Shown here piece by piece: positions 21,428-44,775 of a DNA stretch of 45,866 nt. Made by a program: the position numbers and the translations under genes. The notes under the pieces are model-generated. The model had not been told where the DNA came from. It did not search any database and saw only the letters and a list, made by a program, of their open reading frames with translations. This DNA comes from Candidatus Nomurabacteria bacterium RIFCSPLOWO2_12_FULL_40_42 (GTDB lineage Bacteria; Patescibacteriota; Minisyncoccia; Phycocordibacterales; UBA9973), in assembly GCA_001786195.1 (NCBI GenBank), contig MFVS01000027.1:1-45866 (forward strand), in the 5' to 3' direction. Within the stretch, counting starts at the first letter, position 1. Every line of letters starts with the position of its first letter.

Positions 21428-21480
21428 TTAGTCAAAATAATTCTTCAACCTCGAAATCTTGTCGTGTTGGCGGAGTTTTT
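21428..21480. repeat. 53 bp exact duplicate of the rpoD 3' end (second copy 22184-22236)
   Basis: ttagtcaaaataattcttcaacctcgaaatcttgtcgtgttggcggagttttt identical at both sites. Confidence 0.97.
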
Positions 21481-22128: not shown

Positions 22129-22162
22129 TACCGTAATAACAACGGCCGTGGCTATTATGGTA
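22129..22162. repeat. 34 bp near-palindrome downstream of the Cas2/PaaX-like ORF (locus 1)
   Basis: TACCGTAATAACAACGGCCGTGGCTATTATGGTA; same length and arms as 21515-21548. Confidence 0.9.
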
Positions 22163-22183: not shown

Positions 22184-23392
22184 TTAGTCAAAATAATTCT
22201 TCAACCTCGAAATCTTGTCGTGTTGGCGGAGTTTTTCGTGGACTTTGACTTCGATTTGGCGGATACGCTCGCGGGTCACGCCGAATTCTTCCCCTACCCG
22301 CTCGAGCGTGTGTTGGATGCCGTCTAGGAGACCATAGCGCATTTCGAGAATCTTGCGTTCTTTGGGATTGAGTTCGCATAAAACTTCCCGAATCTGATCT
22401 GAGAGAATCCGGCGAGAAGATTCTTGATCCGGACGTAAAATTTTATCATCCGGAATAAAATTTTCTAAGGTTGATTTGTCGTCATCATCACCGACCGGCT
22501 GTTCAAGTGATACTGTCTCTTGCGAAATATTTTCGATGATGTGAATTTTTTCCACCGGGATGCCCATCTCGGTGGCAATCTCTTCGGCCAACGGCTCTCG
22601 ACCTAAATCTTGGGAAAGCCTGCGATGCGTCTGTTTATATTTCGAAATTGTCTCTACCATGTGCACCGGTATGCGGATAGTGCGAGATTGGTCGGCCAAG
22701 GCGCGGGTAATAGACTGGCGAATCCACCATGTCGCATAAGTGGAAAATTTATATCCCTTGGTCCAATCGAATTTTTCCACTGCCTTGAACAATCCCAAAT
22801 TGCCTTCCTGAATCAAGTCAAGCAGAGTTAAATTGGCAGAGCGTCCTACGTATTTTTTGGCGATAGAAACCACTAAACGCAAGTTCGCGCGGGCGAGCAG
22901 ATTTTTGGCTTCCAGATCACCGTGTTCGATGCGTCTGGCGAGTTCCTTTTCTTCGCCCGCATGGATAAGCGGATACTGACCGATCTCTTTCAAATACATC
23001 TGAATTGAATCATGCATCGTGGATTTGTTCAAATCTTTGTCGGTCAAGTCGACATTCAAATTGAGCAAGTTTCCGCCTTCCAAGACATCAATCCCGGCAA
23101 TGGCAAACTTTTCGTAAAGCTCGTCTAAGAATAAAATGTTGTTTTCAATATCCGGGAAAGTTTTTAAGATTTCATCGTAAGTGATAAATCCCCTCTTGCG
23201 CCCCTTTTCGATGAGCTCGCTTGAGATACGAGTTAAATTTTCCGCCTTTTTTTCCAAAAATGCCAGTTTGAGAGGAAATTTTTTGGAAATTTTTAATTTT
23301 TTTATTTTAAGTTTTTTACTCTTTGGTTTTTTTGCCATCTTGTGTTTTCTAATTTTTGTACTAACTTTTTTTGTCTTTTTTGTTGTTTTCAT
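22184..23392 (-). CDS. rpoD: RNA polymerase sigma-70 factor RpoD
   Basis: [71 protein letters not shown]. Confidence 0.97.
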
Positions 23393-32233: not shown

Positions 32234-33673
32234 TTATTTTAGCAAACTTATTAAAATTTCTTTAGTAACTGCCGGATTCGCCGATCCTTTCATCTCCTTC
32301 ATGATTTGCCCCACGAGCGACATAAGGGCTTGCTCCTTACCGCCTTTATAATCCGCCGCGACTTTTGGATTTGCTGAAATTATTTTTTGCGCGATTTCCT
32401 TTAGCGCGCCCTCGTCATTGCTTTGAAGTAAATTCTTCTTGGTTGCAATTTTCAGCGGCGATTCGTCTTTCATTACTATCATCGCCAAAATATCTTTGGC
32501 AACCCTGGAAGAAATTTTGTTTTCGGCAAACATATTTACCAACTCAGCAAAGTTTTCTGCTGCCGGTAGTTTGGCTTCGGTTTTTGTTTTTTTCAAACCC
32601 AGATAGTCTGATGTTATAAAATTAGATGCTATTTTTATTTTCTTTATTTTATCGGGATTTTCTAAGATTTCTGCGATCGCAGCAAACTTAGTACCGAGCT
32701 CTGGATCATTTATATATACTTCAACATCCTCATCTTTAATTCCAAAATCTTTTTTGTATCTGGCGCGCTTTGCCTCCGGCAATTCCGACAATGCTCGCTT
32801 CATTTTTTCTAAATCAAAAGCTTCGTGCAGTTTCAATTTCGGCAAATCCGGCTCCGGAAAATATCTATAATCCGCGCTACCCTCCTTTTTCCTCTGCGAA
32901 AAAGTTTTCTGTTTGCCTTCGTTCCAGCCGCGAGTTTCCTGCACTATTTCACTTTCTTTTCCACTTTCCAAAAGCTCCGCCATCCGATCCAGCTCGTATT
33001 TGATAGCCCGCTCCACGCTACGGAAAGAATTTAAATTTTTGACTTCCACTTTCGTGCCCAGCTTTTTGGGGTCTATGGAAACAGAAATATTGGCTTCCAC
33101 CCGCATTTCACCCTTCTCCATATTTGCTTCAGAAACGCCCAAATACCAAAGAATGAGTTGCAGCTCTTTGGCAAATTTGGTCGCTCCCTTGGCTGCTTTG
33201 TCAGCATTTTGAAAAGTAGTCGCCTCGGTTACGAGCTCCATCAAGGGCACACCAGCGCGATTGAAATCAATCAAAGAGAAGTCTCCACGGTCATGTTTAT
33301 TATTTGCCGTATCTTCTTCCAAGTGAATCCTAGTAATATCAAAACCTGAAAGATTTCCGCCAGAGACGATCGGGTATTTATATTGCGAAATCTGATAACC
33401 CTTTGGAATATCCGGATAAAAATAATTCTTGCGATCAAATTCCGAAAAGTCAGCAATTTTTCCACCAACTGCCAAGCCGACTTTAATAACATTCTCAATA
33501 GCTTTTTTATTGGCGACCGGCAAAGCTCCCGGATGTGCCATACAAACCGGGCAGATATTCACATTCGGCTGCTCTTCATCCGGGTCGTTCTTGCAAGCGC
33601 AAAACATCTTGGTATTTGTCGAAAGTTCCGCGTGTATTTCTAGACCAATTGTCGGATAATATGTTTTCGCCAT
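32234..33673 (-). CDS. gatB: aspartyl/glutamyl-tRNA amidotransferase subunit B
   Basis: TIGLEIHAELSTNTKMFC; DFNRAGVPLMELVTE; DYRYFPEPDLP. Confidence 0.97.
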   Translation of the reverse strand: MAKTYYPTIGLEIHAELSTNTKMFCACKNDPDEEQPNVNICPVCMAHPGALPVANKKAIENVIKVGLAVGGKIADFSEFDRKNYFYPDIPKGYQISQYKYPIVSGGNLSGFDITRIHLEEDTANNKHDRGDFSLIDFNRAGVPLMELVTEATTFQNADKAAKGATKFAKELQLILWYLGVSEANMEKGEMRVEANISVSIDPKKLGTKVEVKNLNSFRSVERAIKYELDRMAELLESGKESEIVQETRGWNEGKQKTFSQRKKEGSADYRYFPEPDLPKLKLHEAFDLEKMKRALSELPEAKRARYKKDFGIKDEDVEVYINDPELGTKFAAIAEILENPDKIKKIKIASNFITSDYLGLKKTKTEAKLPAAENFAELVNMFAENKISSRVAKDILAMIVMKDESPLKIATKKNLLQSNDEGALKEIAQKIISANPKVAADYKGGKEQALMSLVGQIMKEMKGSANPAVTKEILISLLK

Positions 33674-37172: not shown

Positions 37173-37234
37173 TTAAGTTAAAATAACTTAACATAAAACC
37201 ATATTTTTTACAAAAAACCTGAACTAAAACCGTT

Positions 37235-37266
37235 CCACGATGTTGAACATATGTAAAAGATAGTGG
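37235..37266. repeat. 32 bp near-palindrome downstream of the Cas2/PaaX-like ORF (locus 2)
   Basis: CCACGATGTTGAACATATGTAAAAGATAGTGG. Confidence 0.88.
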
Positions 37267-37279
37267 AGAATTGAGCAAA

Positions 37280-37849
37280 CTAATTTTTATATTTTAGAGT
37301 ACCGTTTTTGGTAACTTCTAAGATTTCAAGATATTCCAGAATTCCCAATCGGCTTAAATCCGCCAAGAATCTTACCGGCAACAGCACTTTTCCCACCCAG
37401 ACACTTTTATGCACCAGATTAAAACCAAGTGTTCGCAGCATGTCTCTCAAAATATTTCTTTCTTTATTAAAAGCTACAGGTATATCATAGCTAATAATAA
37501 TGACTCGATCCCCTGTCTTTGGCTGATATAAATTTTTATTTAGGGAAAAAGAATTTTGAAAATTATTCAGTTTGTTTTTTCCTTTATTGCTTAAATAAAT
37601 TTGTTTTGAATTACTTTCCAAAATCAATCCTTCGCTTTTTAATTTTTGCAGATATTTCTTTAAGTTATTTATTTTTTGCCTATTGATTTCTAAACTTATT
37701 CTTCTATTTTGTATTTTTGAAAATTCATAGTTAATTTTATTACCTGTAGCTCCATACCCTGCTTTCATAAAAGCGTTCGTAAAATCTACATAATCTAGCA
37801 TTCCATCCCCTAAAGAATTTAAGATTTTATAAATTATTTCTCCTTTCAT
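37280..37849 (-). CDS. PaaX/Cas2-like protein
   Basis: YLQKLKSEGLILESNSKQIYLSNKGKNKL wHTH; DRVIIISYDIPVAFNKERNILRDMLRTLGFNLVHKSVWVGK. Confidence 0.7.
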   Translation of the reverse strand: MKGEIIYKILNSLGDGMLDYVDFTNAFMKAGYGATGNKINYEFSKIQNRRISLEINRQKINNLKKYLQKLKSEGLILESNSKQIYLSNKGKNKLNNFQNSFSLNKNLYQPKTGDRVIIISYDIPVAFNKERNILRDMLRTLGFNLVHKSVWVGKVLLPVRFLADLSRLGILEYLEILEVTKNGTLKYKN

Positions 37850-37879
37850 TTTACATATTATATAATAATTTTTTGTATT

Positions 37880-37911
37880 CTACTATCTCGAACATATGTA
37901 AAAGATAGTGG
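37880..37911. repeat. 32 bp near-palindrome upstream of the Cas2/PaaX-like ORF (locus 2)
   Basis: CTACTATCTCGAACATATGTAAAAGATAGTGG; 23 bp identical to 37245-37267. Confidence 0.88.
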
Positions 37912-37958
37912 AAAATGAGTATTGTGCCAAAATTCTTATAAATGTACCCATAAATGGT

Positions 37959-41908: not shown

Positions 41909-41930
41909 TATTTTATTTAAAAGGATACAA

Positions 41931-41964
41931 TTACCTAACTTTTCCGACCGGTAGAGTTAGGTAA
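41931..41964. repeat. 9 bp inverted repeat TTACCTAAC...GTTAGGTAA upstream of a small-ORF promoter
   Basis: read directly; 17 nt before a TTGACA box. Confidence 0.7.
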
Positions 41965-41980
41965 TTTATACAAACTAAAC

Positions 41981-43304: not shown

Positions 43305-43405
43305 GAGTGTTGTGAATTTGCGCATATGCTTAATTTCACGACAGTTCTCCTCTTCCTCCTACATTCATTTTGTTTTTTAAGAAAAAATGCTATATTTTTG
43401 GGAAT

Positions 43406-43480
43406 GGCCCTATCGTCTAACGGTTAGGACAAGGCCTTCTCAAGGCTTAAATCGCGGTCCGATTCCGCGTAGGGTCACCA
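43406..43480 (+). tRNA. tRNA-Glu (CTC), CCA encoded
   Basis: GGCCCTATCGTCTAACGGTTAGGACAAGGCCTTCTCAAGGCTTAAATCGCGGTCCGATTCCGCGTAGGGTCACCA cloverleaf. Confidence 0.93.
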
Positions 43481-43641: not shown

Positions 43642-44775
43642 TTAGAAAAAAGTTTTCCATTCCAAATAATTTTCACTTTTTTCCAAATCGGCGCATTCTT
43701 TCAAGGACAAAACGAAACTCCGCAAGGGTTCGACCCAATTCTTTCTCTGTTGTCCAAAACCTCTTTCGGATTCGAGAAGAGAAGCTTTTTCACGCATGAG
43801 TAAATCTTTTCGTTCTAAATATATTTTTCGTTCAATATCGCCATCTAGGTAAATAGAAACAAGTTTGTCCAGCTTCTCTTGATTTCCTCGAATCTTGTCT
43901 TTGAGATTTTGGACATCACTTCCTCGCGAAGAAATATTTTTATTTTCCCATTCGTTAATTTTACTTTCCATTTTTAATATTTCTTCACGAGGAAGCGACA
44001 CTGATTGAAGCAGTGTTTTTAATTGGGTGGCGAGTGCATGTTCTTGGAGGTATAGTTGACCGCACACACCAAACTTTTTTGTGCAACGATAATATGAATA
44101 TTTTGCACCGAATCGATTGGTAGAATATTGGGCAGTAAACATACTCCCGCACTCGCCACAACGAGCAAAACCGAGAAAATGAAATGGATGAGCTATTTTA
44201 GATTTTCTCGGTTTCTGTCTCGTTTTCAAAACTTTTTGCACTGCTTCAAACAGTGTCGGAGAAAGAATTGGCGCAAATGTGCCGTCATACCATTCGCCGT
44301 GATGCTTCACAAAACCGAGATATGCCCGATTGCAAAGCATGGCCGAGACGGCACATTTGCTAAGTGGCGTTCCATTGCGAGTAACAACGCCATGTTCCGC
44401 CAAAAACTGCGAGATTGATTCATAGCAATGTTTTCCCGTGGCGAATTCCTTAAAAGCGCGAACAACAAGACGAGATTTCAATTTGTCAGGTTCAATATTT
44501 CTCGTCTTAACATTATTTACATATCCAAAAGGCGCTTTTGTCAGCCATTCGCCACGGCGCAGTTTTTGGCGAATTCCACGCTCAACATTTTGTTTTAAAT
44601 TATCCGAAAAATATTTAGATTGTCCGAACGCCACTTGCAACATAAATTTGCCTTGCGGGGTTGGTTCAAACCAAAATGTCGGAAAACGCAAAGAGATGAC
44701 TTTAGAAGTGTCTACGGCGTAAATGATGCGTCCTCCATCAATACTATTTCTCGCAAGTCTATCAGACTTTCTATG
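43642..44775 (-). pseudogene. N-terminally truncated large serine recombinase (catalytic domain missing)
   Basis: in-frame DRLARNSIDGGRIIYAVDTSKVISLRFPTFWFEPTPQGKFMLQVAFGQSKYFSDNL... + recombinase and zinc ribbon domains; stop at 44776-44778 where the catalytic domain should continue. Confidence 0.75.

Follow-up and report, generated by a model that had tools for sequence, protein, structure and literature searches.

Probable REP-like palindromic elements with a Cas2/PaaX-like protein in Patescibacteria

The window analyzed here, a stretch of 45,866 nucleotides from Candidatus Nomurabacteria bacterium RIFCSPLOWO2_12_FULL_40_42, contains two short genes that each lie between a pair of long palindromes, and this raises the question of whether such palindromes are the operators of an ordinary regulator or the ends of a small element that spreads. 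Patescibacteria genomes are very small, yet they hold this single-gene palindromic family with up to ~12 gene copies each. The family looks like a set of previously undescribed tiny selfish DNA elements with a dedicated DNA-binding protein and palindromes of ~32-40 bp; no description of the gene-palindrome association was found in the open-access literature. All genomes examined are assemblies of uncultured organisms.

A gene between matching palindromes at two loci

The two 32-mers of locus 2 were found exactly at the coordinates given in the preliminary description, and the open reading frame (ORF) between them is real and lies on the minus strand. The copy at 37880-37911 is therefore the upstream palindrome (U) and that at 37235-37266 the downstream one (D). 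The features of this locus and of locus 1 are as follows:

37280-37849, minus strand: ORF P0001, 189 aa, N-terminal winged-helix-like region and C-terminal Cas2-like (PaaX_M) domain
37880-37911: upstream palindrome U of locus 2, core ACATATGT; full repeat ~37878-37916
37235-37266: downstream palindrome D of locus 2, of U's sequence family; full repeat ~37233-37271
37857-37862, minus strand: candidate -10 box TATAAT of P0001, between U and the start codon
21553-22119, plus strand: ORF P0002 of locus 1, 188 aa, a diverged paralogue of P0001
21515-21548: upstream palindrome of locus 1, core CGACCG
22129-22162: downstream palindrome of locus 1, core CGGCCG

U and D are identical at 28 of 32 positions, and each also agrees at 28 of 32 positions with the perfect palindrome proposed earlier, which both had rightly been said to approximate. 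Within each 32-mer, 12 of the 16 position pairs are symmetric. When extended, the repeat spans ~36-39 bp with 87% identity (37233-37271 versus 37878-37916); a 22-mer common to U and D has no third place in the window and turned up in 0 of 100 shuffles. Taken singly, the palindromes pair at 13-14 of 18 positions, the maxima of composition-shuffled windows being 12-15, and by symmetry alone a single locus 2 palindrome is not beyond chance. What makes them significant is that they flank the gene as a pair and do so repeatedly, not the symmetry of one site.

The ORF and palindrome pair of locus 1 are likewise real. The recurrence had been called independent, a wording that does not hold, because P0001 and P0002, at 27% identity, have diverged as paralogues within a single family. 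Locus 1 is also flanked by a perfect 53-bp direct repeat (21428-21480 and 22184-22236), which is the last 53 bp of an rpoD-like gene duplicated beside a dsbA-like gene. A role for this duplication as the target-site mark of the insertion was rejected, since genome G001, which lacks the duplication, has this element at that rpoD-dsbA site too, about as diverged as its flanks; the 53-bp repeat is thus a later event than the insertion.

The gene-proximal arm of U overlaps the expected -35 region of the P0001 promoter, and the position of U directly ahead of the putative TATAAT box would fit the expectation for an autorepressor. At many family loci, extended -10 boxes are embedded in the upstream palindrome or lie just after it. 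This placement of the upstream palindrome at the promoter speaks for the chief rival reading, a plain PaaX-like autorepressor with operators upstream and downstream of its gene, in which solitary palindromes elsewhere (solos) would be a small regulon and the repeated units would stem from ordinary gene duplication. PaaX itself is a plain repressor. The E. coli protein is reported to bind TGATTC-N27-GAATCA, a site of comparable geometry to the family palindromes, and to repress its own promoter (PMC9493321). In the window, D is moreover upstream of hlyD, which starts 63 bp beyond it, and some solos lie directly upstream of genes. The evidence on the other side concerns the distribution and boundaries of the units and is given below.

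A PaaX-like protein with a Cas2-like fold

Domain and fold searches bear out the label Cas2/PaaX-like that had been given to the product of locus 2. The PaaX_M domain (Pfam PF20803) was matched with 30.4 bits in P0001 and 71.4 bits in P0002, both above the gathering cut-off of 24, and in all 34 aligned family members; ahead of it, P0001 has a weak winged-helix match in the Pfam search. In the AlphaFold2 model of P0001 (mean pLDDT 82), a helical N-terminal part precedes a C-terminal domain of ferredoxin-like fold; the domain placement is uncertain because the pTM is only 0.45. Among solved structures, the model best matches E. coli PaaX, weakly (E=0.02), and a large number of Cas2 proteins, with probabilities of up to 0.99.

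Against the curated model for PaaX (TIGR02277 equivalog), P0002 scored 30.8 bits relative to a cut-off of 264.55 and P0001 gave no match; against that for Cas2 (TIGR01573), the two proteins scored 16.8 and 16.5 bits relative to a cut-off of 24.5. P0001 is thus not Cas2 by membership, being below the cut-off and in a genus where Cas1 is absent, and it is not PaaX proper, being below the equivalog and devoid of the effector domain. With PaaX it has in common the Cas2-like PaaX_M domain, the winged-helix-like N-terminus, the top PDB fold match to the E. coli protein, and a setting reminiscent of the long palindromic site and autorepression reported for PaaX. It differs in the missing C-terminal effector domain, in its length (189 aa versus ~305) and in being far below the equivalog cut-off, and the family as a whole differs in having palindromes on both sides of its own gene, and in being multi-copy with dispersed solos. 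Family members share with the Cas2 fold an invariant Asp, which may have a structural role, and an invariant Arg, and they have a Ser-x-Trp in place of the Ser-x-Phe of Cas2.

The ferredoxin-like fold is shared with CRISPR Cas2, and the order repeat-gene-repeat resembles repeat-spacer-repeat, as might be expected of a CRISPR adaptation relic in which the Cas2-like protein and Cas1 insert or duplicate a palindromic repeat. However, Cas1 was found in 0 of 36 genomes of the genus by a search that recovered it in 9 of 14 control genomes, the Cas2 scores stay below the curated cut-off, and family proteins have an extra, predicted N-terminal DNA-binding region. Cas1-dependent integration is therefore refuted for the genus, barring an unrecognized integrase, and we regard the relic reading as improbable in the extreme.

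The P0001 sequence contains no HxH/HUH motif, and no catalytic transposase or recombinase domain is recognizable in the protein. A phage or plasmid origin of the family was also considered and rejected: the phage collection gave no match, no match in viral contigs was confirmed, plasmids held only distant PaaX regulators, and there was no PHROG match.

Recurrence, geometry and dispersal of the palindromes

The score for recurrence of the flanking pair took the best two palindromes resembling each other around the ORF start and stop, and was computed for 83 distinct ORFs of the family, drawn from this Nomurabacteria genus and its order, and for 141 unrelated control ORFs from the same loci. The score exceeded that of every control at 66 of the 83 family loci and the control 95th percentile at 75. 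Among 28 phylum-wide loci, 23 were above the control 95th percentile and 19 above the control maximum, and several of these loci carry perfect 36-bp palindromes, as does L298, where GTACATGAAAAAACGCTATAGCGTTTTTTCATGTAC flanks the gene on either side. The pair was also present in 17 of 19 named records with P0001-type genes, so that the palindromes do track the gene across genomes, as anticipated. At least one strong family match occurs in 87 of the 290 genomes of the phylum. About a fifth of the family loci lack palindromes, including one conserved copy per genome (L006, L093, L261, L262 and one in every genus genome), perhaps a domesticated or ancestral regulator. In Parcubacteria GW2011_GWB1_37_13, an obg-linked P0001 orthologue (L317, 2042-2608) has an in-frame stop at codon 21 between two near-perfect palindromes.

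The predicted covariation of palindrome and protein was likewise observed, with copies within one locus matching far better than copies from different loci. Subfamilies differ in the palindrome core (ACATATGT, ACGGCCGT, GCATATGC, TGCTATCGCA or GCCATGGC) and in the outer arms, and over 65 loci the U-D arm identity was 0.74 within a locus versus 0.365 with D sites shuffled; among obg-site orthologues it was 0.83 versus 0.58, with 0 of 5000 shuffles as high. Since U and D match within a locus though subfamilies differ, both ends have changed in concert with the protein.

Symmetric positions of the palindromes covary, with 81% of cells paired and a covariation of 0.54 versus 0.19, and the outer arm has hardly any G-U pairs. 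Most of the symmetry falls within a core of about ±4 bp and an outer box at about ±12 to 17 bp, and it reaches the center, where the innermost pair is symmetric in 91%. Together these properties point to double-stranded DNA as the site, recognized by a symmetric dimer whose subunits each make two contacts. The palindromes are also able to form hairpins, and D follows closely on the stop codon, as would suit RNA hairpins or transcription terminators at gene ends. Yet a hairpin loop does not need symmetry to the very center, the scarcity of G-U pairs argues against an RNA stem, and the same sequence also occurs upstream of the gene and inside unrelated genes. Since Rfam had no match for the palindromes, an RNA element was rejected, and we hold the hairpin or terminator reading to be very improbable.

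The repeated unit is delimited by copies at different sites. In genome G013, the elements L060 and L077 lie at unrelated sites and have no likeness outside a stretch of 91% identity, which begins at the outer edge of one palindrome and runs slightly beyond the other. Over 38 element pairs the similarity stopped just short of the outer edges, by a median of 1 bp at the upstream and 4 bp at the downstream end. As similarity ends at the outer palindrome edges, the moving or duplicating unit is palindrome-gene-palindrome; in L060/L077 and the 38 pairs, the same unit occurs at different sites with its boundaries at its ends, as in a mobile element. At 28 of 65 loci the element, or its downstream palindrome, is situated between convergent gene ends, which is an insertion-tolerant place and leaves a downstream operator nothing to control. 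A function of the downstream palindrome as operator of the next gene was rejected as a general rule on this ground. This location, the coincidence of element boundaries with palindromes, the presence of 1 to 13 family gene copies per genome in the genus, and the solos within the reading frames of tsaD, iscS, gatB and a reverse transcriptase (see below) all stand against the plain regulator, which we therefore consider unlikely.

The window copies are old residents, because the P0001 subfamily is mostly kept between obg and gatB and the locus 1 element is common to G001. Persistence of the P0001 subfamily at the obg locus in most genomes implies that the window copy was inherited and is not currently jumping; it is other copies and solos that speak for movement. 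Element-free obg-gatB and rpoD-dsbA sites exist in relatives whose sequence is too diverged to place the junction, and for this reason neither a clean target-site duplication nor a precise empty site could be delimited.

Solos were retrieved with covariance models of three palindrome subfamilies and were defined by the lack of a family gene within 1.5 kb; among 40 solo loci retrieved, L191 proved to adjoin a family gene. Solos and gene carriers per genome were tallied by hand. P0001-type solos occurred in 11 of 11 genomes with a P0001-type gene versus 4 of 25 without (P=2e-6), and solos of the GCATATGC subfamily in 9 of 9 genomes with the gene versus 8 of 27 without (P=3e-4); a few genomes do hold solos without a cognate gene. 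In their outer arms, solos resemble the gene-flanking palindromes of their own genome, with 0 of 2000 permutations as high in one subfamily and P=0.07 in a second. The genome of the window has one P0001-type solo (G000:C30:17897-17938, GTCTACGATCTCGAACATATGTAAAAGATAGTAGAC), located 3' of an rRNA pseudouridine synthase gene (name read from the sequence). Solos and candidates in the window itself are:

43308-43343: solo palindrome without ORF, between rmuC and tRNA-Glu; GCATATGC-core, imperfect; covariance model E=6.8e-5
41930-41965: candidate solo just 3' of an exonuclease gene, 15 of 18 pairs, subfamily unassigned; weak, within reach of chance
32659-32694, minus strand: candidate degenerate solo in gatB, encoding FAAIAEIL at the position of the in-frame solo of G011; weak

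The first of these is an orphan, as the genome has no matching gene subfamily. It lies just before tRNA-Glu (43406-43480), close to which a serine-recombinase-like ORF (43642-44691, minus strand) possibly marks an integrated element. Elsewhere, palindromes of different subfamilies, distinguished by cores or outer arms, are found within ~0-10 bp of each other (L227, L191, L232, L223/L275, L276, L217), as if insertions favored existing palindromes or a safe site.

Dispersed sites for a predicted dimer, sometimes with different specificities side by side (L227, L232, L275, L276), could also belong to a chromosome-organizing or bridging factor, whose sites would be kept by selection for genome structure and not be selfish. 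Solos are few, though (~10 or fewer per subfamily per genome), and their places differ from genome to genome; the gene subfamily has a patchy distribution, a genome would have no need of several paralogous specificities, and conserved genes are interrupted by sites. A bridging role thus appears improbable.

Palindromes of the TGCTATCGCA subfamily were found in frame in conserved genes, where they almost always read ...NSAIAEN...: tsaD (G031), iscS (G031, G019), the N-terminus of ksgA (G019), a reverse transcriptase ahead of GLPLGNLTSQ (G000, G008, G035), an M24 peptidase (G014) and gatB (G011, with a candidate degenerate copy in the window). Aligned with 22-25 genus orthologues, tsaD has ~12-13 and iscS ~8 extra residues at the palindrome site, and judged by these alignments both are in-frame insertions; those in ksgA and the reverse transcriptase probably are too. 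The palindromes in gatB and the M24 peptidase take the place of other sequence and leave the length unchanged. As an element carrying a gene would destroy the host gene, bare palindromes must be able to arrive on their own. The reverse transcriptase palindromes lie at nearly the same place in the three genomes (L166, L164, L185); their outer arms differ and their junctions vary slightly, which suggests that a preferred site was hit repeatedly. Different in-frame insertions, such as AFLNSQSQAL and FFFSGFPALQRQ, occupy the same position in tsaD (L340, L342, L345, L349, L354, L357) and the same position in iscS (L376, L378), suggesting further protein-coding repeats in these genomes.

A proposed mechanism and its closest relatives

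From the observed architecture, phylum-wide recurrence, palindrome-protein co-evolution, element boundaries, gene-dependent solos and in-gene insertions, we infer a family of selfish, REP-like palindromic elements, in which a dimeric Cas2/PaaX-like protein would bind the palindromes, repress its own promoter and probably help the palindromes spread; as a whole, this reading is the probable one. Binding of the dimer to its palindromes is very likely, self-repression from the upstream site is likely, and promotion of the copying or movement of the palindromes, by the protein alone or with host replication and repair enzymes, is favored by a little. Locus 2 would accordingly be read as one copy of a tiny selfish element composed of a palindrome, a single gene and a palindrome. 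The protein would act as a homodimer, its Cas2-like domain dimerizing over the palindrome center and its N-terminal winged-helix region reading the outer arm, the subfamily-variable part. Bound at U, it would repress its own promoter; bound at both ends or at solos, it may mark its own DNA and help to copy or move it, much as is proposed for TnpA-REP on REP, via an unrelated protein.

A REPtron consists of TnpA-REP with REP sequences (PMC8266576). As in REPtrons (TnpA-REP/RAYT), family genes adjoin their cognate palindromes (REP, 20-50 nt), solos are dispersed elsewhere, and protein and palindrome co-evolve. In contrast to REPtrons, the protein is Cas2/PaaX-like, with no HxH motif in P0001, and not an HUH-Tyr transposase, the palindrome foot has no GTAG or other shared tag and outer arms differ between subfamilies, solos do not reach hundreds per genome and also lie in coding genes, and several gene copies with different specificities share a genome. 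The family would work like a REPtron but is not one. The palindromic elements of Rickettsia are in-frame in unrelated conserved genes and ~150 bp long (PMC10969869); the insertions in tsaD and iscS, and likely those in ksgA and the reverse transcriptase, resemble them in being in frame in conserved genes, in a comparison by description. The palindromes described here are ~36-40 bp and, unlike those of Rickettsia, are linked to a cognate protein gene. IS200/IS605 elements are likewise single-gene elements with palindromes at both ends, and the family differs from them in lacking an HUH transposase and in sites that look double-stranded and fully symmetric.

If the protein mobilizes palindromes, it would be a Cas2-fold protein that acts like a REP transposase without HUH chemistry. 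The further-reaching claim, a new class of mobile DNA in which a Cas2-fold protein with neither Cas1 nor a known transposase domain mobilizes bare 36-40-bp palindromes and palindrome-gene-palindrome elements across Patescibacteria, including in-frame into essential genes, is tentative and somewhat less than an even chance. If true, it would offer a testable mechanism and a candidate mobilizer for protein-coding palindromes as in Rickettsia, and possibly a way, outside CRISPR, for a Cas2-type protein to have begun handling palindromic repeats. Even if the protein is only a regulator, the family provides phylum-wide matched protein-site pairs suited to reading a DNA-recognition code.

Finally, promoter-like sequences in which 8-10 G in a row lie between TTGAC and a -10-like box were noted in L077 (1736 and 3379), L069 (minus strand, 3399), L056 (minus strand, 3477) and L289 (minus strand, 2045). 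Some are directly beside palindrome elements, and their G-runs are suggestive of phase-variable promoters.
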